This document shows positions 580 through 31,713 of a stretch of 36,947 bases of DNA, piece by piece. The DNA lies in contig JADGAL010000005.1 of the NCBI GenBank assembly GCA_015232025.1, positions 1 to 36,947 on the forward strand, in the 5' to 3' direction. How positions within the stretch are numbered: position 1 is the stretch's first letter; each line of letters begins with the position of its first letter. Both the position numbers and the translations under genes were made by a program. The notes below the pieces were generated by a model. The model saw only the letters and a list, made by a program, of their open reading frames with translations, had not been told where the DNA came from and did not search any database. This DNA is from Alphaproteobacteria bacterium (GTDB lineage: Bacteria > Pseudomonadota > Alphaproteobacteria > Rhodospirillales > Magnetospirillaceae).

Positions 580-3500
580 ATGCCGATCAGCGGGCATTAC
601 GACCACTTCAACAAGAACAAGCCGTACGACGCCATCCTGTATCGGGTCGATCGCGCGCTGCAAGGCGCCGAGTTGAACGAGATGCAGTCCCGTCACGCCG
701 CGCGGATCGCCGAATTGGGCGCCGTGTTGTTCAAGGACGGCGCGGTGATCCGCGGCTGCGAGGTGCGCATCGACGCCGAGACCGGCGAAACCTCCGTGAG
801 CGCAGGCACTCTTTGGGTACGGGGCGCGGTGCGTGGGGTCGCGGCCGGGTCGATGACCATCCCGGTGATAGGGCTGGCGGAAATCGGCGTGCATGTCGTC
901 GAGACGACGGTCACCGAACTCGAGGATCCGTCGCTGCTCGATCCGGCCGTCGAGACCCACAATTACCAGCAGCCGGGCGCCGCGCGCCGCGCCATCACGC
1001 TGGAGTGGGGCTGGCGGGCCGGCGTCCTGGGCGATGGCGCGGCCGGCGATTTCTACCGGGTGTTCAGCGCCACCAACGGCGTGCTCGACGCCATGGCGCC
1101 CCCACCCCAGCTTGACGGCGTACAGTTGGCGCTGGCGCGCTACGACCGGGCCTCGACCGGCGGCACCTACGTCGTCGAAGGCTTGGCCCCGCGCGCCCTC
1201 GACATCGTCGCGGGTCAGCAGGTCTTTTCGCTGCAAGAGGGCCGCGCCCATGTGGACGGCTATGAGATCGAGAAGCCGACCGCCACGCGCCTGACCTTCG
1301 ATGCCGACCCCGACCTGATGTTGATCGAAGCGGAGCCCCACACCTTCGCGCCCAACGGCTCGGGCGTCATGCGGATCGACGTGGTGCATGGGCCGCTGGC
1401 CGAGTTGGTCGAGGTCAAGGTGACCGCGCAACGCGTCGATGTGATGCTGGTGCATGGCGCCTATACCGGCGCGGTCGACCCACTGCCCGACGTGTCGGTG
1501 CTCCAGATCGTGTCGGTCGCCCAAGGCGCCACCAACTACGTGGTGGGCGGCGACTGCAAGCTGACCGGCAACGGCGTGGACTGGTCGCTGGCCGGGGCCG
1601 AGCCCGCGCCGGGATCGTCCTACACGGTGACCTACAAGTATTTCACCGATGGGACGGTGACGCTCGCCGACGACGCCGGCTTCACGGTGGGCGGCGCCGT
1701 CTCCGGTTCGCTGGTGATGGTCGATTATCGCCACAAGCTGCGCCGCTTCGATCGCCTCGTGATGGACCGCGACGGCCGCTGCCATCGCGTGCGTGGCGTC
1801 GGCGATCTGATCGGCCCGGCGGTGCCGGCGGCGCCGGCTGGCATGCTGCCGCTGGCGACCCTCGACCAGACCTGGTGGGCGATGCCGCGCGTCATCCTCG
1901 ACGCGCCGAAAGTGATGCCGGTCGGCGAGTTGCGGGCGCTGTCCAATCGCGTCGACGTCCTGTTCGACCTAGTGGCGATCGAGCGGCTGAAATCCGACGC
2001 CACGGCGCGCGAGCCGACCACAGCTAAAGGACTGTTCGTCGATCCGTTCCTGGATGACGACATGCGCGATGCCGGCGTGATCCAGGACGCGGCGATCGTG
2101 TCCGGCGAACTGACCCTGCCGATCGCGCCGATCTTCACCGACCCGCTGGCGGCCGGCGATCAGCACATGCTGACCTATGCCCTGGAGCCGGTCCTGTCGC
2201 AGGAACTCGTGACCGGCGGCATGAAGGTCAACCCGTACATGGCCTTCGCGCCGATCCCGCCCAAGCTGACCGTCACGCCACAAGTCGATCGCTGGACCGA
2301 GCGGCGCGATGTTTGGGGCGGGGACAGTGTGCGGTTCCTGCGCGTGGGTCATTTCGTCGACGGGGTCTCGCGGGTTGCGAACACCACGACGCTGGAAGAT
2401 CGGATCGAGACGGTCGAGCGATCCGAGACGGCGGCGCAGTTTCTGCGGCGGATTTCGCTGCACGTGAAGATCGAAAACCTGGGGCCGGGCGAGATCGTCG
2501 ACGCCATCCGCTTCGACGGCATCCAGGTGGGCGGCGGCATGGTGGCAAACGGCGCGGGGGTGGTCGAGTACGACTTCCAGATCCCGCCCGATGTTCCGAG
2601 CGGCGCCAAGCGGGTCGAGGCGGCCTGCCGCGCCACCGGCCTGGGGGTCGCCACCTTCGTCGGCGAAGGGCGCATCGCGACCGAGGTGCGCCGCCGCGTG
2701 GCCACGATCGAGGAGTTCCACGTCGATCCGGTGGCTCAGACCTTCATGCTGCCCGATGGCCGCCACATCGGCGGCGTCGACCTGTGGTTCCGGGCCAAGG
2801 GCGCCAGCCAGGTCGTGGTGCAAATCCGCGACGTGCTTTTGGGCCTACCGGCCGTGACGGTGCTGGCCGAGACCCGGCTGGTGCCCGCCGACATCCGCAC
2901 CGATGGCCAGCCCACGCGGGTTGCATGGCGGCCGGTGTGGCTGGAAGCCGGTCGCGAATTCGCCATCGTGGTGTTGTGCGACGATGCCGACGCCGAAGTG
3001 TCGATCGCCGAACTGGGCAAGTTCGACGAAACGCGGCAGCGGTGGGTCACCGTTCAGCCCTATCAGATCGGCGTGCTGCTGAGTTCCAGCAATAATTCGA
3101 CCTGGACGCCGCATCAGGCCGCCGACCTGACCTTCCGGCTGTTGGGCTGCCGGTTCACCGCGACCAGTCGCGCCGTGTCGCTGGGCGTGCTGGGGGCCGC
3201 CGATGTTTCCGACCTGGTGGCGCTGTTCAATTCCGAACGCCCCGACGCCGCCACCCGCATCGCCCTGCGCCTGACCGCGCCGGACGGGGCGATCTACAGT
3301 CTGGCGGACGGCCAGCCGATGAACCTGCCGCTCCGACTGACCGGCGATCTGACGGTGCAGGCCGTCCTCGAGGGCACCGATCTGCGCAGTCCGGTCCTGC
3401 ATCCCGGCATCCAGGCGATCTTCGGCGTGCTGTCGGACAGCGCGACCTATGTCAGCCGGGCCTTTCCCTGCGGCACGGCGGCCAAGGTCCGGGTGGTCTA

Positions 3501-3729
3501 CGAGGCCTTCAAGCCGGGCACCGCGACCGTCACGCCGGCCGTGCAGGCGGGCGACGGCGCATGGGTCGAGGTGCCGCTGACCGCCGGTCAGGCGGTGGGC
3601 GACGGCTGGGAGGAATTCAGCCATATCCTGCCGGCGCACACCGCCGCGCAAACGCGGCTGCGCCTGACGTTGGCCGGCTCGGCGGCGGCCCGGCCGCGCG
3701 TCCGCCGCCTGCGCTGCATCGTGACGTGA
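580..3729 (+). CDS. DUF4815-family phage tail protein
   Basis: A 1049-residue virion protein that begins MPISGHYDHFNKNKPYDAIL, a start I recognise as the DUF4815 phage family. The N-terminal 150 residues contain the conserved features of that family (YRVDRALQGAELNEMQ, then a NYQQPGAARR stretch). The rest is long, beta-rich and poor in Cys, as expected for a fibre or spike-like structural protein. The ATG at 580 follows an AGGAG site. It lies 10 bases after the preceding tail gene and 7 bases before the fibre gene, so the three are one transcription unit. The exact biochemical role of DUF4815 is not known; a baseplate or tail-fibre part is likely from its place in the gene order. Confidence 0.8.
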   Translation: MPISGHYDHFNKNKPYDAILYRVDRALQGAELNEMQSRHAARIAELGAVLFKDGAVIRGCEVRIDAETGETSVSAGTLWVRGAVRGVAAGSMTIPVIGLAEIGVHVVETTVTELEDPSLLDPAVETHNYQQPGAARRAITLEWGWRAGVLGDGAAGDFYRVFSATNGVLDAMAPPPQLDGVQLALARYDRASTGGTYVVEGLAPRALDIVAGQQVFSLQEGRAHVDGYEIEKPTATRLTFDADPDLMLIEAEPHTFAPNGSGVMRIDVVHGPLAELVEVKVTAQRVDVMLVHGAYTGAVDPLPDVSVLQIVSVAQGATNYVVGGDCKLTGNGVDWSLAGAEPAPGSSYTVTYKYFTDGTVTLADDAGFTVGGAVSGSLVMVDYRHKLRRFDRLVMDRDGRCHRVRGVGDLIGPAVPAAPAGMLPLATLDQTWWAMPRVILDAPKVMPVGELRALSNRVDVLFDLVAIERLKSDATAREPTTAKGLFVDPFLDDDMRDAGVIQDAAIVSGELTLPIAPIFTDPLAAGDQHMLTYALEPVLSQELVTGGMKVNPYMAFAPIPPKLTVTPQVDRWTERRDVWGGDSVRFLRVGHFVDGVSRVANTTTLEDRIETVERSETAAQFLRRISLHVKIENLGPGEIVDAIRFDGIQVGGGMVANGAGVVEYDFQIPPDVPSGAKRVEAACRATGLGVATFVGEGRIATEVRRRVATIEEFHVDPVAQTFMLPDGRHIGGVDLWFRAKGASQVVVQIRDVLLGLPAVTVLAETRLVPADIRTDGQPTRVAWRPVWLEAGREFAIVVLCDDADAEVSIAELGKFDETRQRWVTVQPYQIGVLLSSSNNSTWTPHQAADLTFRLLGCRFTATSRAVSLGVLGAADVSDLVALFNSERPDAATRIALRLTAPDGAIYSLADGQPMNLPLRLTGDLTVQAVLEGTDLRSPVLHPGIQAIFGVLSDSATYVSRAFPCGTAAKVRVVYEAFKPGTATVTPAVQAGDGAWVEVPLTAGQAVGDGWEEFSHILPAHTAAQTRLRLTLAGSAAARPRVRRLRCIVT

Positions 3730-3736
3730 GGAACCG

Positions 3737-4882
3737 ATGACGAACACCACAACGCATTTCGGCCTGCCGCTGCCCTCGCCGAACGCGGACAGCCAGCGTG
3801 ACGACGTCGCGCGGATCGCGGCGGCGATCGAGGGGTTCGACGCCCTGGCTGGTCGCGTCCGCGCGTTTGACACCGACGCGGCGCCGGGGTCATTGGCGGC
3901 GAAGCTCCAGTTCAGCGGGGCGACGGTCGCCATCCTGAACCTTGGCGGCGACGAGGTGATGCAAGTGGCGATCGACGCCGCCGACACGACGGCGCTCGAA
4001 ACCAATCTGATGGTGATCGCCATGTGGCAACTCATCGCTGCGGGCTGGGCGGCGCATGGCATGGTCGATGGTGTGGTGGACGAGTTCACCGATGCGACGG
4101 GGCTCGACGCCGGCTTGAGCGACGCCGTGCTGACCACCGGCTATGTGACATCGGCGCTGGTGGCGGACGCCACCGACGGCCGGGGCGCCTACACCTACGC
4201 GTCGTCGATCCACGAAGGGTACGTGCCGAACAGGGTCGTGGACGGGGTCACCGACGGGACATCCCGATGGATCGCCGCGGTCGCGGACGCGAGTGCGTGG
4301 TGGGCCGTCGATCTGGGAACGGCGAAGACGATCAGCGCGCTGCGGATGATCAGCACGCCGGCCGTTTACGGCGTCAAGGACTTTCGGCTCCAATGGTCCG
4401 CCAATTCGAGCAATGGCTCGGATGGCGCCTGGACGGACGTCTTCGCGGCGACGCATACCAGCGAAGCGGTTTGGGTGGACTACCCCATCCCGCTCACCGC
4501 CGCCCGCTGGTGGCGGGTCGCCCTGGACACCAAATGGGCGTACTTTTCGATCACGGAAGTCGAACTTCGGACGGCCGGGACGTTCACCGCGACGTCGGCC
4601 GCCTACGCCGCCGATGGCGTGCCGTCGTCGGCGCGTCTCGTGCTGCGGCACCAGCCGATCGGAGCGGTGGTGCTCGGCACGGACCTGATCGTCGAGGCCA
4701 GCCGCGACAACGGCGCCCATTGGACCGCCGCCACCCCCGTCAAACAAGCGACTGTCGCCGGGGTCGACATCCTGTCGGTGACCATTCCGCTGTCCGGTCA
4801 GCCGGTCGGCCAGTCCATGCGGTGGCGCGTGCGCACCACCGGGGCCGAGCAGCGGCTCCATGCCATCTCCATGCAATGGTGA
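3737..4882 (+). CDS. Putative tail fibre / receptor-binding protein with discoidin-like domain
   Basis: A 381-residue protein. Residues 1-120 look like a fibre N-terminus (TTTHFGLPLPSPNADSQRDDV, then IAAAIEGFDALAGRV). Residues about 150-279 resemble an F5/8 type C (discoidin) carbohydrate-binding domain: an N-terminal disordered-to-strand region with VPNRVVDGVTDGTSRWIA, the WWAVDLG core strand, a KDFRLQWS strand and a closing FSITEVELRT strand. The C-terminal 100 residues form another beta-rich module. A sugar-binding domain on a fibre fits recognition of surface polysaccharide on the host. Fibre identity comes from its position between DUF4815 and the small chaperone-like gene; the domain call is by eye. 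Confidence 0.65.
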   Translation: MTNTTTHFGLPLPSPNADSQRDDVARIAAAIEGFDALAGRVRAFDTDAAPGSLAAKLQFSGATVAILNLGGDEVMQVAIDAADTTALETNLMVIAMWQLIAAGWAAHGMVDGVVDEFTDATGLDAGLSDAVLTTGYVTSALVADATDGRGAYTYASSIHEGYVPNRVVDGVTDGTSRWIAAVADASAWWAVDLGTAKTISALRMISTPAVYGVKDFRLQWSANSSNGSDGAWTDVFAATHTSEAVWVDYPIPLTAARWWRVALDTKWAYFSITEVELRTAGTFTATSAAYAADGVPSSARLVLRHQPIGAVVLGTDLIVEASRDNGAHWTAATPVKQATVAGVDILSVTIPLSGQPVGQSMRWRVRTTGAEQRLHAISMQW

Positions 4883-4886
4883 CGAA

Positions 4887-5249
4887 ATGCCCCAGAGAGT
4901 GACCCCAGCCGGCTTGGCGCCGGCCAATTTCGCACCCGTCGCGCCCGATCCCGAGGCCATGCGCGCCGCGCTGGTCGCCCTCGTCAAAGCCGAGGCCGGG
5001 CGCCGCATTCTGGCCCAGGTGCCCAGCTGGAAGCAGTCGAACGCCACCGCCCGCGCCGTCGAGTTGACCCGGATTGGCATGCAGCGCGCGCTGACGCCAG
5101 ACGAGACCGCCGAGGTGGCGGCGATCGGCGGGCTGTGGGCGGCCGTCAAGGCGATCCGCGACGCCTCGGACGCCATCGAGACCGACATCATGACCACGCC
5201 GCCCGAGTCTCTGCCCACCTTCGACCTCACCGGCGGCTGGCCCGAATAA
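4887..5249 (+). CDS. Small phage protein, tail-fibre-assembly-like
   Basis: A 120-residue protein. I choose the ATG at 4887, 4 bases after the fibre stop, over an in-frame start at 4860 inside the fibre gene. The middle segment (WKQSNATARAVELTRIG, then an Ala-rich helix and LWAAVKAIRDASDAIE) is predicted helical. It resembles the short proteins that follow fibre genes in many prophages and carry a WRQxNxxARxxEL-type motif; these are usually annotated as tail assembly or fibre chaperones. It is the last gene before a strong terminator, so it closes the baseplate-fibre operon. The function is inferred from likeness and position. Confidence 0.6.
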   Translation: MPQRVTPAGLAPANFAPVAPDPEAMRAALVALVKAEAGRRILAQVPSWKQSNATARAVELTRIGMQRALTPDETAEVAAIGGLWAAVKAIRDASDAIETDIMTTPPESLPTFDLTGGWPE

Positions 5250-5275
5250 CGTCGGGGTCATCAATCACCATCCGC

Positions 5276-5299
5276 AGCCCGCCGATTGGCGGGCTTTTT
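5276..5299 (+). terminator. Rho-independent terminator between fibre and sheath operons
   Basis: AGCCCGCC and GGCGGGCT form a perfect 8-bp stem around a GATT loop, followed at once by a run of T. It lies 26 bases after the stop of the small fibre-associated gene and 33 bases before the sheath start. It therefore separates the baseplate/fibre and tail tube/sheath transcription units. Confidence 0.85.
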
Positions 5300-5331
5300 C
5301 GTGTCAGACCCCCAGCGAGGGAGCATCGGGA

Positions 5332-6945
5332 ATGCCCGAACAGTTTTTGCATGGCGTGGAAGTCGTCGAGATCGACGACGGCCCGCGCCCGATACGAACC
5401 GTCAAGTCGTCGATCATCGGCCTGGTGGGCACCGCGCCGCGCGGCCCGGTCAACACCCCCGTGCTGATCGCCGGCAGCCGCATCGAGGCGGTCAAGGCGT
5501 TCGGCGCGCCGGGCGGCGGCTACAGCATCCCCGAGGCGCTGGACGGCATGTTCGATCAGGCGGGCGCCATGGTCGTGGTGATCAACGTTGCCGATCCCAC
5601 CCACCTCGCGCACCTGACGACGGTGGCCGCCCAGCCCATGGCCTTCGACGCCGCCGGGCGGATCGACCTGGGACGCCGCGTCGTGTCGGCCGTCACGGTG
5701 CTCGGCCCGGTGATGGCCGACATCCGGTTGGACGCGGCGGGCACCATCACGCTGCCGGCCGCCGCCAACGTGGTCGAGGTCGGCAGTCTGAGCGGCGAGA
5801 CCGTCTTCGTCCTGGACACCGATTACACCGCCGCGGCCGGCGTGATCACCCGCCTGCCGGGTGGCGGCATCGCGGCGGGCGCCACCCTGCTGGTCAGCTA
5901 CACCATCGCCCTGACCGAGAACGTCGACTACGAGGTCGACGACTATGCCGGCGTGATCACCCGCAAGCCCGGCGGCGGCATCGTCGAGGGGGCCACGCTG
6001 GATGTCGGCTTCACCCATCTGGACCCCGCCAAGGTTCTGCTGGCCGACGTGATCGGCGGCGTCGACGAGGTCACCGGCGGCTACACCGGCCTGTACGGCC
6101 TGCTGGCCGCGCAATCGGTGGTCAAGGTGCAGCCGCGCATCCTGATCGCGCCGCGCTTCACCCATCAGCGGCCCGAGATCGACGGCCAAGTGCTGGCCAG
6201 TCCCGTGGTGGCTGAGATGCTGGGCATCGCCAACCGGCTGCGCGCGGTGATCATCGCCGATGGCCCCAACACCACCGACTCCGCCGCCATCGATTACCGC
6301 GAGGATTTCGGCTCGGCGCGGCTGTTCGTGGTCGACCCGTGGGTCAAGGTCTGGGACACCGCCACCAACGCCGCCATCGATCAGCCCGCCAGCGCGCGGG
6401 TGGCCGGCATGATCGCGCGCAGCGACAACGAGCGGGGCTTCTGGTGGAGCCCGTCCAACCTGGAGATGTTCGGCATCGTCGGCACCACGCGCCCGGTGGA
6501 TTTCGTGCTGGGCGACACCAACTGCCGCGCCAACTACCTCAACGAGAACGAGGTGGCGACCATCATCCAGGAAGACGGCTATCGACTCTGGGGCAACCGC
6601 ACCTGCTCGTCCGACCCGAAATGGGCCTTCCTGTCCGTGCGGCGCACCGCCGACATGATCAACGACAGCGTGATGCGCAGCCACATGTGGGCCGTCGATC
6701 GCAACATCGTCAAGACCTACATCACCGACGTGTCGGACGGCGTGAACGCCTATCTGCGGCACCTGACCGTGCTGGGCGCCCTGCTGGGCGGACGCTGCTG
6801 GGCGGACCCCGAGTTGAACACGCCGGATCAGATTTCCCAGGGCAAGGTCTATTTCGACTTCGACTTCACCCCGCCCTATCCGGCCGAGCACATCACCTTC
6901 CGCTCGCGCATGGTCAACGACTATCTCGAGGAGCTGTTCGCATGA
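5332..6945 (+). CDS. Contractile tail sheath protein (P2 FI type)
   Basis: A 537-residue protein, the usual size for tail sheath subunits that form the outer contractile tube. The N-terminus (FLHGVEVVEIDDGPRPIRTV then SSIIGLVGTAP) is the classic sheath start. The C-terminal half has the conserved sheath features: a FVVDPWVKVWD stretch, an ARVAGMIARSDNERGFWWSP segment and a final RMVNDYLEELFA. Residues about 163-228 contain a tandem pair of beta units (each with AGVITR.PGGGI), probably a surface insertion. An AGGGAG site precedes ATG 5332. The stop overlaps the tube start (ATGA), as expected for the FI-FII pair. Confidence 0.95.
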   Translation: MPEQFLHGVEVVEIDDGPRPIRTVKSSIIGLVGTAPRGPVNTPVLIAGSRIEAVKAFGAPGGGYSIPEALDGMFDQAGAMVVVINVADPTHLAHLTTVAAQPMAFDAAGRIDLGRRVVSAVTVLGPVMADIRLDAAGTITLPAAANVVEVGSLSGETVFVLDTDYTAAAGVITRLPGGGIAAGATLLVSYTIALTENVDYEVDDYAGVITRKPGGGIVEGATLDVGFTHLDPAKVLLADVIGGVDEVTGGYTGLYGLLAAQSVVKVQPRILIAPRFTHQRPEIDGQVLASPVVAEMLGIANRLRAVIIADGPNTTDSAAIDYREDFGSARLFVVDPWVKVWDTATNAAIDQPASARVAGMIARSDNERGFWWSPSNLEMFGIVGTTRPVDFVLGDTNCRANYLNENEVATIIQEDGYRLWGNRTCSSDPKWAFLSVRRTADMINDSVMRSHMWAVDRNIVKTYITDVSDGVNAYLRHLTVLGALLGGRCWADPELNTPDQISQGKVYFDFDFTPPYPAEHITFRSRMVNDYLEELFA

Positions 6946-26630: not shown

Positions 26631-27836
26631 GTGCAAAGCGATTTCGCGAAACAGCGTCGGCAAATCGCCCCGCGGCCCGATTGGGAGGCGGCGGTCAAGG
26701 CGTTGGGCTTCGACTTCGCCACCATCGACGGCCTGCCCTACTGGGACGAAGGCGTCTGCTGGCGGCTGACCGGCGCGCAGGTCGACGCGCTCGACGACGC
26801 GGCGGCCGAGTTGCACGCGATGTGCCTGGACGCCGTGCGCGACGTCATCGACACCCATCAACTGGGCCGCTTCGGCATCACCGGGGCGTGGGCCGAGGAA
26901 GTGCAAGAAAGCTGGCGGCGCGGCTTGGTGGCCGACCGGCCGGGCGGGCACGTCCATGGCCGCTTCGACCTGGCCTTCGACGGCGAGACCATCAAGCTGC
27001 TGGAATACAACGCCGACACGCCGACCAGCCTGTTCGAGGCGGGCATCGTCCAGTGGTACTGGAAAGAGGCGTGCCATCCCGGCGCCGACCAGTTCAACAG
27101 CCTGCACGAGAAGCTGGTGGCCCGCTGGGCCGACCTGCTGCCCGGCGCGCCGCGCGCCGCCGATGGCCAGCGCTGGCTGCACGGCATGGCCCAGGTGCCG
27201 CACCCCGAGGACGAGACCACGGTGCGCTACATGCTGGCCTGCGCCGAGGAGGCCGGCTGGCGCACCCATTTCCTAGGCGTCGCCGACATCGGCTGGGACG
27301 ACCTTCGGCGGCGCTTCGTCGATCTGGAGAACCAGCCGATCACCACCGCCTTCAAGCTGTATCCCTGGGAATGGCTGGCCAAGGAGGAGTTCTTCCAAAA
27401 CCTGCGCGTCGCGGCGACCCGCTGGATCGAGCCGGCCTGGAAATCGGTGCTCAGCAACAAGGCGCTGCTGGCCGTGTTGTGGGAGCTTCATCCCGAACAC
27501 CCGCTGCTGCTGCCCGCCAGCTTCGACCGCCGCGCCCTGTCGCCCGCCAAGGGCTTGGTGCGCAAACCGCTGCTCGGCCGCGAGGGCGCCAACATCGCCC
27601 TGTTCGACGCCGACGGCAAACAGGTGCTCGCCACCGATGGCCTTTACGGCGACGAGGGTTACGTCTGGCAGGAACGCGCCCCGATGGCCGCGTGGCGCGA
27701 CAAGAACGGCGACACCGGCACCGCCGTGTTCGGCGTGTGGGTGATCGGCAACGAAACGGCCGGCCTGGGCATCCGCGAGGACCAGGGATTGATCACCCGC
27801 GATTCCAGCCGCTTCGTGCCGCATTACTTCGAGTGA
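26631..27836 (+). CDS. Glutathionylspermidine synthase-like ATP-grasp protein (YjfC/YgiC type)
   Basis: A 401-residue ATP-grasp enzyme of the family related to the synthetase half of GspSA. I use GTG 26631, two bases after the lipoprotein stop. Family marks: PYWDEGVCWRLT, the KLLEYNADTPTSLFEAGIVQ core, FKLYPWEWL, KSVLSNKALLAVLW, VRKPLLGREGANIALFD and the end GIREDQGLITRDSSRFVPHY. The stand-alone YjfC/YgiC proteins lack the amidase domain and are thought to ligate a peptide or amine, but the true substrate is not settled. It ends the four-gene operon; the CRISPR leader follows without a clear terminator. Confidence 0.9.
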   Translation: MQSDFAKQRRQIAPRPDWEAAVKALGFDFATIDGLPYWDEGVCWRLTGAQVDALDDAAAELHAMCLDAVRDVIDTHQLGRFGITGAWAEEVQESWRRGLVADRPGGHVHGRFDLAFDGETIKLLEYNADTPTSLFEAGIVQWYWKEACHPGADQFNSLHEKLVARWADLLPGAPRAADGQRWLHGMAQVPHPEDETTVRYMLACAEEAGWRTHFLGVADIGWDDLRRRFVDLENQPITTAFKLYPWEWLAKEEFFQNLRVAATRWIEPAWKSVLSNKALLAVLWELHPEHPLLLPASFDRRALSPAKGLVRKPLLGREGANIALFDADGKQVLATDGLYGDEGYVWQERAPMAAWRDKNGDTGTAVFGVWVIGNETAGLGIREDQGLITRDSSRFVPHYFE

Positions 27837-28104
27837 CCGCATCCTTTCGACGAGAAGCCGATACCGGGTTCCCGGCGGGCGATATTCACGCTAGACTACA
27901 CCCGCCGCGCGCCTTCGAGCGGTCCGGTGCCGGGTGACCCCCCGGGGGGCGCTCGAAACGCTGTTTGACATTGTGAAGATTGAGTTTTTTGGCCCGTTGG
28001 CGGGCGGGACGCGGTGTTCCGGGCGCCTGGATCGGGGGGCACGGCGGGGGTGCTCGAAAATCGGGTTGTAAGTGGTTGGTGGAACGGGGTAATTTTGGGG
28101 GTCT
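27837..28104 (+). promoter_or_regulatory. CRISPR leader-like region
   Basis: This 268-base gene-free stretch precedes the first repeat. It holds an inverted repeat TTCGAGCG (27914-27921) / CGCTCGAA (27950-27957) around a C/G run, then TTTGACATTGTG at 27964-27975 and a T-run. An AT-richer last part contains TCGGGTTGTAAGTGG and GGGGTAATTTTGG. I recall similar GC-hairpin plus TTGACATTG arrangements between cas2 and arrays in proteobacteria. Here the upstream gene is unrelated to cas. A leader on this side agrees with decay of repeats at the other end. Confidence 0.55.
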
Positions 28105-30506
28105 CTTTCCCCGGCAGAAATGCCGGGGCCTCATTGAAGCATGTGCCTATGGAATGGCTTGTGCGGCTGTGAACGGAAGGCTTTCCCCGGCAGAAATGCC
28201 GGGGCCTCATTGAAGCACCGAATACTGGACGTGAAAGTTACGCGTGTTGTAGGACGCCTTTCCCCGGCAGAAATGCCGGGGCCTCATTGAAGCAGTCTCG
28301 GCGCCCGGCCGGTCTCATTCGCTCGCGCCCGGGCGCTATCCCCGGCAGTAATGCCGGGGCCTCATTGTAAGCGCAGCCAGGCGATCGACTGACAGCAACA
28401 TCCGCGCGCGCCTTTCCCCGGCAGTAATGCCGGGGCCTCATTGAAGCTATGGGGCCACCCGGCGCGGAAGTCCCTCTCTCACTGGCCTTTCCCCGGCAGT
28501 AATGCCGGGGCCTCATTGAAGCGGGATGTCGCGCGCCATGGCGGTAACCGCCGTTGCCCTTTCCCCGGCAGAAATGCCGGGGCCTCATTGAAGCCGGTCC
28601 ACTTCCGCCGCGAAGGGCTCCAGCACCTCCGCTTTCCCCGGCAGAAATGCCGGGGCCTCATTGAAGCTATGTTGGCGACCTCCCCCCCTGGGAGGAGGCG
28701 ATCGCTCTTTCCCCGGCAGAAGTGCCGGGGCCTCATTGAAGCTGCACCCATCGGGCGGTCTACGACTTCCCGCTTTCCGACGTTTCCCCGGTAGAAATGC
28801 CGGGGCCTCATTGAAGCTCATAGTGCTTGGCCCATCGATCGGCCCGGCTGATGGTCTTTCCCCGGGATTACGGTGACAGTGCATTTAATTGGGATGCGCG
28901 GATGCCGTCACCGTAACCTTCGGGAAATAAGTGCACTGTCACCGTAACTCACCGTAACTCCTGTCACCGTAACTCCAGCCCCGCCGCGCGCGCCTCCTTT
29001 CCCCGGCAGAAATGCCGGGGCCTCATTGAAGCGACTTGGCAATGCTGAGGCGCGCATGGCCGCTGATCCAGCTTTCCCCGGCAGAAATGCCGGGGCCTCA
29101 TTGAAGCAAGGTGCCCGCGACATGACGCACCCCCTGCAAAATCGCTTTCCCCGGCAGAAATGCCGGGGCCTCATTGAAGCGACCCGCTCATGACCCGACG
29201 ATTGTCGATGGTCCGTGCGGCTTTCCCCGGCAGAAATGCCGGGGCCTCATTGAAGCTCGTTCTCGCTGGCGCAGGCCAGGGCGGCGCGGAGGTGCTCTTT
29301 CCCCGGTAGAAATGCCGGGGCCTCATTGAAGCTTGGGCCGCCTGCGCGAGTTGCCGACGATCGAGCTGCCCTTCCCCGGCAGAAATGCCGGGGCCTCATT
29401 GAAGCTTCGGGGCAGTCGCCGCGCTTTTCGGGCGTGTCGATGCTTTCCCCGGCAGAAATGCCGGGGCCTCATTGAAGCGCGTAGGCCCCGGCGGACATCC
29501 CGCCCTTGGCCAGCTTTCCCCGGCAGAAATGCCGGGGCCTCATTGAAGCCCCTCAACCCTGATCATCCTGGACTTGGCGTCAACATCCGCTTTCCCCGGC
29601 AGAAATGCCGGGGCCTCATTGAAGCTCCGGCACGGTCACCGGGTTCGTCTACTACCTGACCGGCTTTCCCCGGCAGAAATGCCGGGGCCTCATTGAAGCG
29701 CCCGGCCGGAGGCTGTCGCCGACATCGTCGCCAGTCTTTCCCCGGCAGAAATGCCGGGGCCTCATTGAAGCCTCGCGAAGAGCTTGAAGGACATGGCCGG
29801 CGCCGCCTTTCCCCGGCAGAAATGCCGGGGCCTCATTGAAGCTGCGCGTTGATCGCCGCGATGATGTCCATGATCCATCTCCTTTCCCCGGCAGTAATGC
29901 CGGGGCCTCATTGAAGCCCCTACGGCTCGACGGTTTGGAACCTGAAAGAGCCGCTTTCCCCGGCAGAAATGCCGGGGCCTCATTGAAGCCGCAACTCGCC
30001 GATCGTCACGCCCATGCCTTGGGCGATGGCCTTTCCCCGGCAGAAATGCCGGGGCCTCATTGAAGCCTCGGGGCCAGCGCTGCCAACCACCATCGGACGT
30101 CGTTCTTTCCCCGGCAGAAATGCCGGGGCCTCATTGAAGCAGCTTCACGGCCATGGCCGCATCCTCCTAACGGTCGTACTTTCCCCGGCAGAAATGCCGG
30201 GGCCTCATTGAAGCCGGCCACGTTTCACCGGCCGCGAGTTGGTCCTCGAGTCCTTTCCCCGGCAGAAATGCCGGGGCCTCATTGAAGCAGGATCGCGTTG
30301 ACGTTCGACGACCAGTCGCCACCCGCTTTCCCCGGCAGAAATGCCGGGGCTTCATTGAAGCCAGCCCAGGTATCGCTCACGCACCTCCGGATGGGCCGTC
30401 CTTCCCTGGCCGAAATGCCAGGGCCTCATTGAAGCTTCTCCACCGGACCAATGCGCTTGTTGATCTTTGCAGATTTCCCCGGCAGATGCCGGGGCCTCAT
30501 TGAACC
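28105..30506 (+). CRISPR. CRISPR array, 32 repeat units, no cas genes in window
   Basis: The 36-bp repeat begins CTTTCCCCGGCAGAAATGCC and ends GGGGCCTCATTGAAGC. Repeat starts run from 28105, 28181, 28258 to 30326, 30400 and 30473. Spacers between intact units are 35-42 bp, all different. The unit at 28856 keeps only ten bases, where another element is inserted. The last two units (30400-30435 and 30473-30506) are degenerate, so the trailer is on the right and the leader on the left. The 3' end ATTGAAGC would give a Cas6-type 5' handle in crRNA read on the plus strand, as in type I or III systems. Repeats ending CCTCATTGAAGC remind me of type I-G (former I-U), but that is recollection. With no cas genes here, it is orphan or served in trans. 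Confidence 0.98.
28866..28976. mobile_element. REP/MITE-like palindromic element inserted in the CRISPR array
   Basis: Arms at about 28867-28893 (starting ATTACGGTGACAGTGCA) and 28921-28948 (complementary, ending GTGCACTGTCACCGTAAC) match at about 24 of 27 positions. Four copies of TCACCGTAAC lie at 28908, 28939, 28949 and 28964. I recall this GTGACAGTGCA-type palindrome from regions next to REP-associated tyrosine transposase genes in proteobacteria. No transposase gene is present, so it is a non-autonomous copy. It follows the first ten bases of a repeat (28856-28865); the rest of that repeat is missing. Confidence 0.7.
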
Positions 30507-30732
30507 ACCGCGCCCCGCCGCCAACTGCGATCGTCGTCATCCGCTTGATCGTCGCCAGCCGCGCTCACCCCCCAACCCCGCCCCACACCCAGCCTCACGC
30601 ACCGAACGGCGTACCAATCCTCGCCATGGTTCAATCCACCGCCACCATGGACCATTGACAGGGTTCTGATCCGGTGAGAGTGTTAAATATCAGGCGTGTA
30701 CATCGCCGTTGTGTAGTTTAAGGAGGCTGCTG
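30507..30732 (+). other. Gene-free stretch between CRISPR trailer and ABC importer
   Basis: No coding frame, tRNA or repeat is convincing here. The left part is C-rich; the right part holds TTGACA at 30655-30660 and an AT-rich TGTTAAATAT at 30681-30690, but their spacing (22) is poor for a sigma70 promoter. The importer promoter is probably in this region. Confidence 0.5.
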
Positions 30733-31713
30733 ATGTCCTTGGCCAATTTCCTGCGTCGCGCCGGTACGGCGGCGGTCGTCCTGATGGGGTTGTCCGCCAA
30801 TGCGGGCGCGGCCGACAAGGTCGACGAGGTGAAGATCGACTTCGCCTATTACAATCCGGTCAGTCTGGTGCTGAAGGACAAGGGCTGGCTGGAAGAGGAT
30901 CTGAAGGCCGATGGCATCACGGTGCGTTGGATTCATTCGCTGGGCTCGAACAAGGCGCTGGAATTCCTGAACGCCAAAAGCCTGGAATTCGGCTCGACGG
31001 CCGGGGCGGCGGCGCTGTTGGCGCGCATCAACGGCAATCCCGTGAAATCGATCTACGTCTATTCCAATCCGGAATGGACCGCGCTGGTCACCCAGAACGG
31101 CTCGGCGATCAAGACGGTGGCCGACCTTCGGGGCAAGCGGATCGCCGCCACCCGCGGCACCGATCCGCATATTTTCCTGATCCGCACCCTGGCCGAGAAC
31201 GGTCTGACCGAAAAGGACGTCAAGATCGTCCTGCTGCAACATCAAGATGGACGTCTGGCGCTGTCCACCGGCGATGTCGACGCGTGGGCCGGCCTCGATC
31301 CGCTGATGGCCCAGGCCGAGCTTCAGGAAAATGCCCGGCTGTTCTACCGCAAGGCCGAGATCAACAGTTGGGGCGTGTTGAATACCCGCGAGGACTTCGC
31401 CGCCGACCATCCCGCGCTGGTCGAGCGGGTGTTGAAGGTCTATGAGAAGGCCCGCGCCTTCGCCATCGCCAATCCGGCCGAATTGAAGGCGATCATCGCC
31501 CGGCACGCCAAGCTGGCCGACGACGTCGCGGCCCGCCAGCTTGAGCGCACCGACCTGTCGACCGCCGCGATCGGCGAGCGCCAGCGCAAGACCATCGAGG
31601 GCGCCGGCGTCGCCCTGCGACAGGCGGGCGTCATTCCGGCCGATGTCGACGTGGCGGCCGCCGCCGCCTCGCTGATCGATTCGTCCTTCGTCACCAAGCT
31701 TGGCATCAAGTGA
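30733..31713 (+). CDS. ABC transporter substrate-binding protein, SsuA/NrtA type
   Basis: A 326-residue periplasmic protein. I use ATG 30733 behind a strong AAGGAGG site; an upstream TTG is not needed. The signal peptide (basic FLRRAG, hydrophobic core, cut after AGA at about residue 27) is clear. The mature part has the SsuA/taurine-binding pattern: VKIDFAYYNPVSLVLKDKGW, FLNAKSLEFGSTAGAAALLA, VADLRGKRIAATRGTDPHIF, and a GDVDAWAGLDPLM hinge. Likely ligands are aliphatic sulfonates or similar small anions, but the specificity cannot be read. Its stop overlaps the permease start, forming the A-C-B importer operon. Confidence 0.88.
   Translation: MSLANFLRRAGTAAVVLMGLSANAGAADKVDEVKIDFAYYNPVSLVLKDKGWLEEDLKADGITVRWIHSLGSNKALEFLNAKSLEFGSTAGAAALLARINGNPVKSIYVYSNPEWTALVTQNGSAIKTVADLRGKRIAATRGTDPHIFLIRTLAENGLTEKDVKIVLLQHQDGRLALSTGDVDAWAGLDPLMAQAELQENARLFYRKAEINSWGVLNTREDFAADHPALVERVLKVYEKARAFAIANPAELKAIIARHAKLADDVAARQLERTDLSTAAIGERQRKTIEGAGVALRQAGVIPADVDVAAAAASLIDSSFVTKLGIK

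Follow-up and report, generated by a model that had tools for sequence, protein, structure and literature searches.

A multicopy, Y1-linked TIR-dimer element within a type I-G CRISPR array of an alphaproteobacterium

The interrupted array and its element

The window, i.e., the whole stretch of 36,947 nucleotides that was analyzed, contains a long CRISPR array, the features of which are listed in Table 1. The array was assigned to type I-G because csb1/cas7g (TIGR02570) adjoins the same 36-nt repeat on contig C255, and both the repeat and a type I-G cas gene are therefore present in the genome. Its leader lies at the low-coordinate side, as judged from the leader sequence common to the arrays and from the decay of the repeats at the 3′-end. 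Ten repeats are followed by one truncated repeat with the element and then by 21 repeats, the first full one beginning at 28997. An Rfam search of the sequence matched the CRISPR repeats only and gave no match to the element. Just upstream of csb1/cas7g on C255 (L085, 74–281), this repeat also occurs in degenerate copies at irregular distances. At positions 580–6945 of the window, DUF4815, galactose-binding, and phage tail-sheath genes form a contractile-tail (phage-like) cluster on the contig of the array.

Table 1 Features of the array and the inserted element (window coordinates)
Feature	Position	Strand	Evidence
Type I-G CRISPR array	28105–30506	+	Repeat list; Rfam CRISPR-DR16; leader; csb1/cas7g (TIGR02570) on C255
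Last intact spacer 5′ of the element	28818–28855	+	Following repeat lacks the hairpin
Residual repeat, first 10 bases, CTTTCCCCGG, exact	28856–28865	+	Repeat comparison
Non-autonomous TIR-dimer element, MITE-like, ~110 bp	28866–28975	+	Copies in the same genome and in relatives
Left TIR arm, GATTACGGTGACAGTGCATTTAATT	28866–28890	+	Arm pairing and family arm consensus
Internal half-motif, GTCACCGTAAC	28907–28917	+	
Right TIR arm, AAATAAGTGCACTGTCACCGTAACTC	28925–28950	+	
Two tandem 5′-truncated right-end copies, ACCGTAACTC and CTGTCACCGTAACTC, both closing on the same copy-specific CTC	28951–28975	+	
21-nt remnant of the spacer right of the element	28976–28996	+	

The first-pass annotation had described a repeat reduced to its first 10 bases, with the other 26 lost, and both statements hold: the 10 bases are exact, and bases 11–36 are absent from 28866–28995, even with 10 differences allowed. 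It had also placed the insertion at the foot of the repeat hairpin. In the fold of the 36-nt repeat, the stem is formed by bases 5–12 and 17–24, and the break after base 10 thus falls inside the 5′ stem arm, of which six of the eight bases are left.

The element is a palindrome, as first described, and its inverted arms (28868–28890 and 28925–28947) are 91% complementary over 23 nt. The 82-nt core folds at −39.7 kcal/mol (z = −6.5), a value that none of 200 shuffled sequences equaled. Four copies of TCACCGTAAC had been noticed, and they start at 28908, 28939, 28949, and 28964; all are in the element and none is elsewhere in the window (0.01 expected).

The consequences for the array are probably local. 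The spacer on the 5′ side of the element has no downstream repeat hairpin, and the remnant on the other side has no upstream repeat. Neither should yield a normal crRNA through normal processing, which probably costs the array two crRNAs. Elsewhere, the array is intact in the repeat listing, and the remaining spacers should be unaffected.

The element family and its link to Y1 transposases

The element is multicopy. Its 17-nt end was found at 17 places of the genome with two or fewer mismatches, whereas the reversed control gave none. Of 99 related genomes, 21 contain relatives of the element, and at least 119 DNA stretches with such relatives were found in GTDB genomes. Most of these stretches come from alphaproteobacteria, and the matches listed include Bradyrhizobium, Mesorhizobium, Sphingomonadales, and Rhodospirillales as hosts. 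A search for copies on plasmids gave no match. The first-pass annotation had reasoned that a single-copy sequence without relatives would be just a diverged spacer; the element is multicopy and has relatives, and this reasoning does not apply to it. The dimeric TIR ends of the family are TTACGGTGACAGTGCAC...GTGCACTGTCACCGTAA, which the short forms of 53–105 bp have in common around unrelated cores. Such gene-less TIR dimers are dispersed over many genomes, and one MAG contains three identical 65-bp copies. These sequences are short, non-coding, and multicopy, with TIRs common to an autonomous element, and thus have the properties of MITEs. A clean empty site was not recovered in the genus of G005 or in Bradyrhizobium, where the flanks were too variable.

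Some loci contain additional sequences. In the genome of the window, a GmrSD_N/HNH gene on contig C467 (L089, 9186–10799) and an ORF without a Pfam match on C32 (L084, 142–591) lie between the same TIR ends, and elements of the family may carry passenger genes. At L143 (approximately 4894–4963), a second repeat that recurs in many Bradyrhizobium genomes directly adjoins the TIR dimer.

The link to Y1 transposases comes from the relatives. Inverted end copies bracket Y1 genes in loci of five genomes (G002, G005, G010, G012, and G014). When 80 GTDB loci were picked by the end motif alone, 17 encoded a Y1 of this clade, and TIRs were present on both sides of the gene in seven of the 17 under a strict rule. 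The NHVH, WQ, and Y[IV]xxNP motifs are found in all four reference Y1 proteins. The G005 protein matches Pfam Y1_Tnp and NCBIfam NF047646 (REP-associated tyrosine transposase), the latter at 81.4 bits, which narrowly passes the cut-off of 80 bits and assigns the enzyme to the RAYT family. In the genome of the window, a search with the Pfam profile and the protein of a relative found no Y1 gene in this MAG, which is 81% complete. A genome of the same genus (G001) contains a Y1 fragment near an end motif, 85% identical over amino acids 1–60. Because the family TIRs flank Y1 genes in relatives and no such gene was found in its own genome, the element is regarded as non-autonomous and would need the enzyme in trans.

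The initial designation as REP/MITE-like therefore stands in part. The sequence is a multicopy, MITE/REPIN-like palindrome with ends that bracket Y1/RAYT genes elsewhere, but it is not a REP as strictly defined, because the hairpin-foot tetranucleotide GTAG/GTGG is absent and because it ends in long TIRs (TTAC...GTAA) like those of TIRYTs. In the available part of the published account, Y1 genes with long TIRs in place of REPs are termed TIRYTs (PMC3733652). A Y1 gene between TIRs unrelated to REPs is found in the relatives and not in the genome of the window. Judged by sequence features, the family comes closest, among the known kinds, to the TIRYT/TIRtron group rather than to true REPs, and it probably corresponds to TnpA-Y1 subclass 2.1 of PMC6006769. 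As far as the available part of PMC3733652 describes them, TIRtrons share with the present family the Y1 gene between TIRs, gene-less TIRs that occur as singles, dimers, and groups, and the NHVH, WQ, and Y-NP motifs; GGTGACAG is one mismatch from GGGGWSAS, a motif of only some published TIRs. The TIR sequence and the host group are different, the likeness being drawn from the published description. That part of the account makes no mention of tandem truncated end copies, and the present family differs further in being found here in CRISPR arrays. The activity of TIRYTs on TIRs is described as still to be tested in the sources at hand. The REPINs and REPs with their RAYTs (PMC3116915) are similar in the short palindromic dimer, the Y1 acting in trans, and the low-copy transposase gene, whereas the present element has neither their tetranucleotide tag nor a REP hairpin.

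Array junctions and alternative explanations

Three of the nine element places in the genome of the window are at CRISPR arrays (P ~4e-4 against a 12% intergenic null and ~7e-3 when conditioned on the given copy), and one further element is at an array in G001. Across the family, none of 80 loci was at a CRISPR array. An apparent array in G020 was rejected, since its repeats lie within a coding-like region. The association is confined to this genus and is suggestive only, as some copies may be inherited and the null model is simple.

One of these elements, on contig C293, lies in flanks that match those of the window (95.6% over 367 nt and 97.5% over 163 nt), and its array has no spacer in common with that of the window. 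The simplest reading of C293 is therefore that it represents this locus from another strain, placed in the same MAG bin. Comparison of L027 (C293) with window positions 27738–30757 gives two versions of one locus in one MAG, i.e., strain heterogeneity of the bin together with fast spacer turnover. The C293 element is 95% identical to that of the window (longest exact match, 40 nt) and has the same orientation, but it follows repeat base 28, 4 nt past the repeat stem. The other copies in the genome are at most 86% identical to the window element over the aligned part. The loci on C32 and on contig C9 of G001 are orthologous (~95% over 5.8 kb). Their arrays end in the same element, with about one base difference beside the junction, behind 24 and 15 nt, respectively, of different truncated last spacers. 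Closely similar elements thus have different array-side junctions, at repeat base 10, repeat base 28, spacer base 24, and spacer base 15. Recombination between repeats cannot alter the piece from the last repeat to the element, and these junctions must therefore have been remade, either by new insertions, by local hops, or by deletions from the element end.

The junction differences could alternatively come from a separate insertion into each array (the two alleles of the window locus, C32, and G001), with the arrays of this genus as a hot spot. We consider this a possible but somewhat doubtful explanation. It agrees with the four distinct array-side junctions and with the over-representation at arrays within the genome. 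The similarity of the elements, however, points to inheritance: the window (contig C455) and C293 copies are as close to each other as their flanks and share their orientation, whereas other copies are more distant, and the C32 and G001 copies are nearly the same within a 95%-identical locus. The absence of arrays from the 80 family loci also speaks against this explanation.

It is very improbable that the element is a true REP/REPIN whose RAYT targets the repeat hairpin. The palindromic dimer and the score of related Y1 genes as REP-associated tyrosine transposases are in line with it, but the element has 20-bp TIR arms without the tetranucleotide foot, and only the window break is in a stem, the C293 break lying 4 nt beyond and the other two in spacers. 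Moreover, at 30 other short insertions, the flanks once joined were no more structured than controls (mean z, 0.08 ± 0.16), which speaks against the idea of the first-pass annotation that hairpin DNA is targeted. We also give little credence to placement for a function, such as splitting the array into two transcripts. A strong hairpin at a mid-array site would suit this purpose, and a transcription stop or start in mid-array had been suspected, but no terminator-like or sigma-70 promoter-like site was found at 28700–29150, and elsewhere the element lies at the distal end of an array, with little or nothing left for it to split. A diverged oversized spacer, a trailer sequence, or a chimeric contig is the least credible explanation: repeats and elements are difficult to assemble in a 499-contig MAG, but the element has relatives in many genomes, three contigs of this genome and one of another species join the family to the array type with distinct junctions, and 20-mers across either window junction are absent from the other loci of the genome that were examined.

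End copies, proposed mechanism, and implications

The ends of family elements carry tandem copies of their last 7–30 bases, which are shortened at the 5′ side and all stop at the same base. The shared stop takes in two or three nucleotides specific to each insertion. The dinucleotide after GTAA matches between adjacent end units in 134 of 164 cases, which are not fully independent because some of the listed arrays overlap, compared with 18% between arrays. Examples are found in the window (28951–28975), L033 (1504–1600), L161 (7533 onward), and L037 (1438–1651). Judged by this sequence pattern, the end copies may have been left by repeated nicking where Y1 cuts.

Here, we propose as the best explanation that a gene-less TIR dimer of the TIRYT type inserted into the type I-G array past the tenth repeat from the leader and that Y1 cutting has shaped the junctions, an explanation that we hold with considerable confidence. 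Against it stand the negative Y1 search in this MAG, the failure to recover a clean empty site, and the possibility of separate insertions. A Y1 enzyme acting in trans, now or formerly, would cut one strand at the fixed end of the element, and the same cutting would have brought the element into the array. Repeated cuts at one base, followed by repair, would produce the tandem truncated end copies as well as deletions from the element into the adjoining repeat and spacer. If one strand were cut at a constant position and the other broken at varying ones, repair would account for both the end-copy pattern and the end-anchored deletions. A more speculative and rather unlikely extension is that Y1 keeps nicking the resident element end at one base, with repair leaving end-anchored tandem duplications and deletions, such that an element in an array would act as a spacer eraser. 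If so, neighboring spacers would be trimmed without recombination between repeats.

IS608, a member of IS200/IS605, has subterminal hairpins and a fixed target tetranucleotide. The present family shares with it the Y1 HuH chemistry, in which target duplication is expected to be absent. No target-site duplication was evident at the array junctions, for which no clean empty site was recovered. The family differs from IS608 in that the four array junctions have no common target sequence.

In the available parts of the literature, mobile elements that interrupt CRISPR arrays are described as rare. The MITE HqIRS37 was found in a CRISPR locus of Haloquadratum walsbyi HBSQ001 (PMC3119063), and an early survey, as cited in PMC4390879, reported one IS (ISH4) and a 132-bp MITE from CRISPR loci of euryarchaea. 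As described there, these cases are archaeal and concern other elements, and HqIRS37 lies in a spacer, its locus having no cas genes, whereas here it is a repeat that is broken, within a long array of type I-G. The kind of element is already known; what is unusual is that it recurs at arrays within one genus and that the ends show the copy pattern described above.

Gene-less elements in CRISPR arrays have seldom been reported, and the published cases in the sources at hand are archaeal. Here, four arrays within a single bacterial genus contain or adjoin members of one family, and their junctions have been remade between strains and species. They thus offer a natural record of how a Y1 element remodels an array, and the end-copy pattern makes a direct, testable prediction of the position at which TIRYTs cut.
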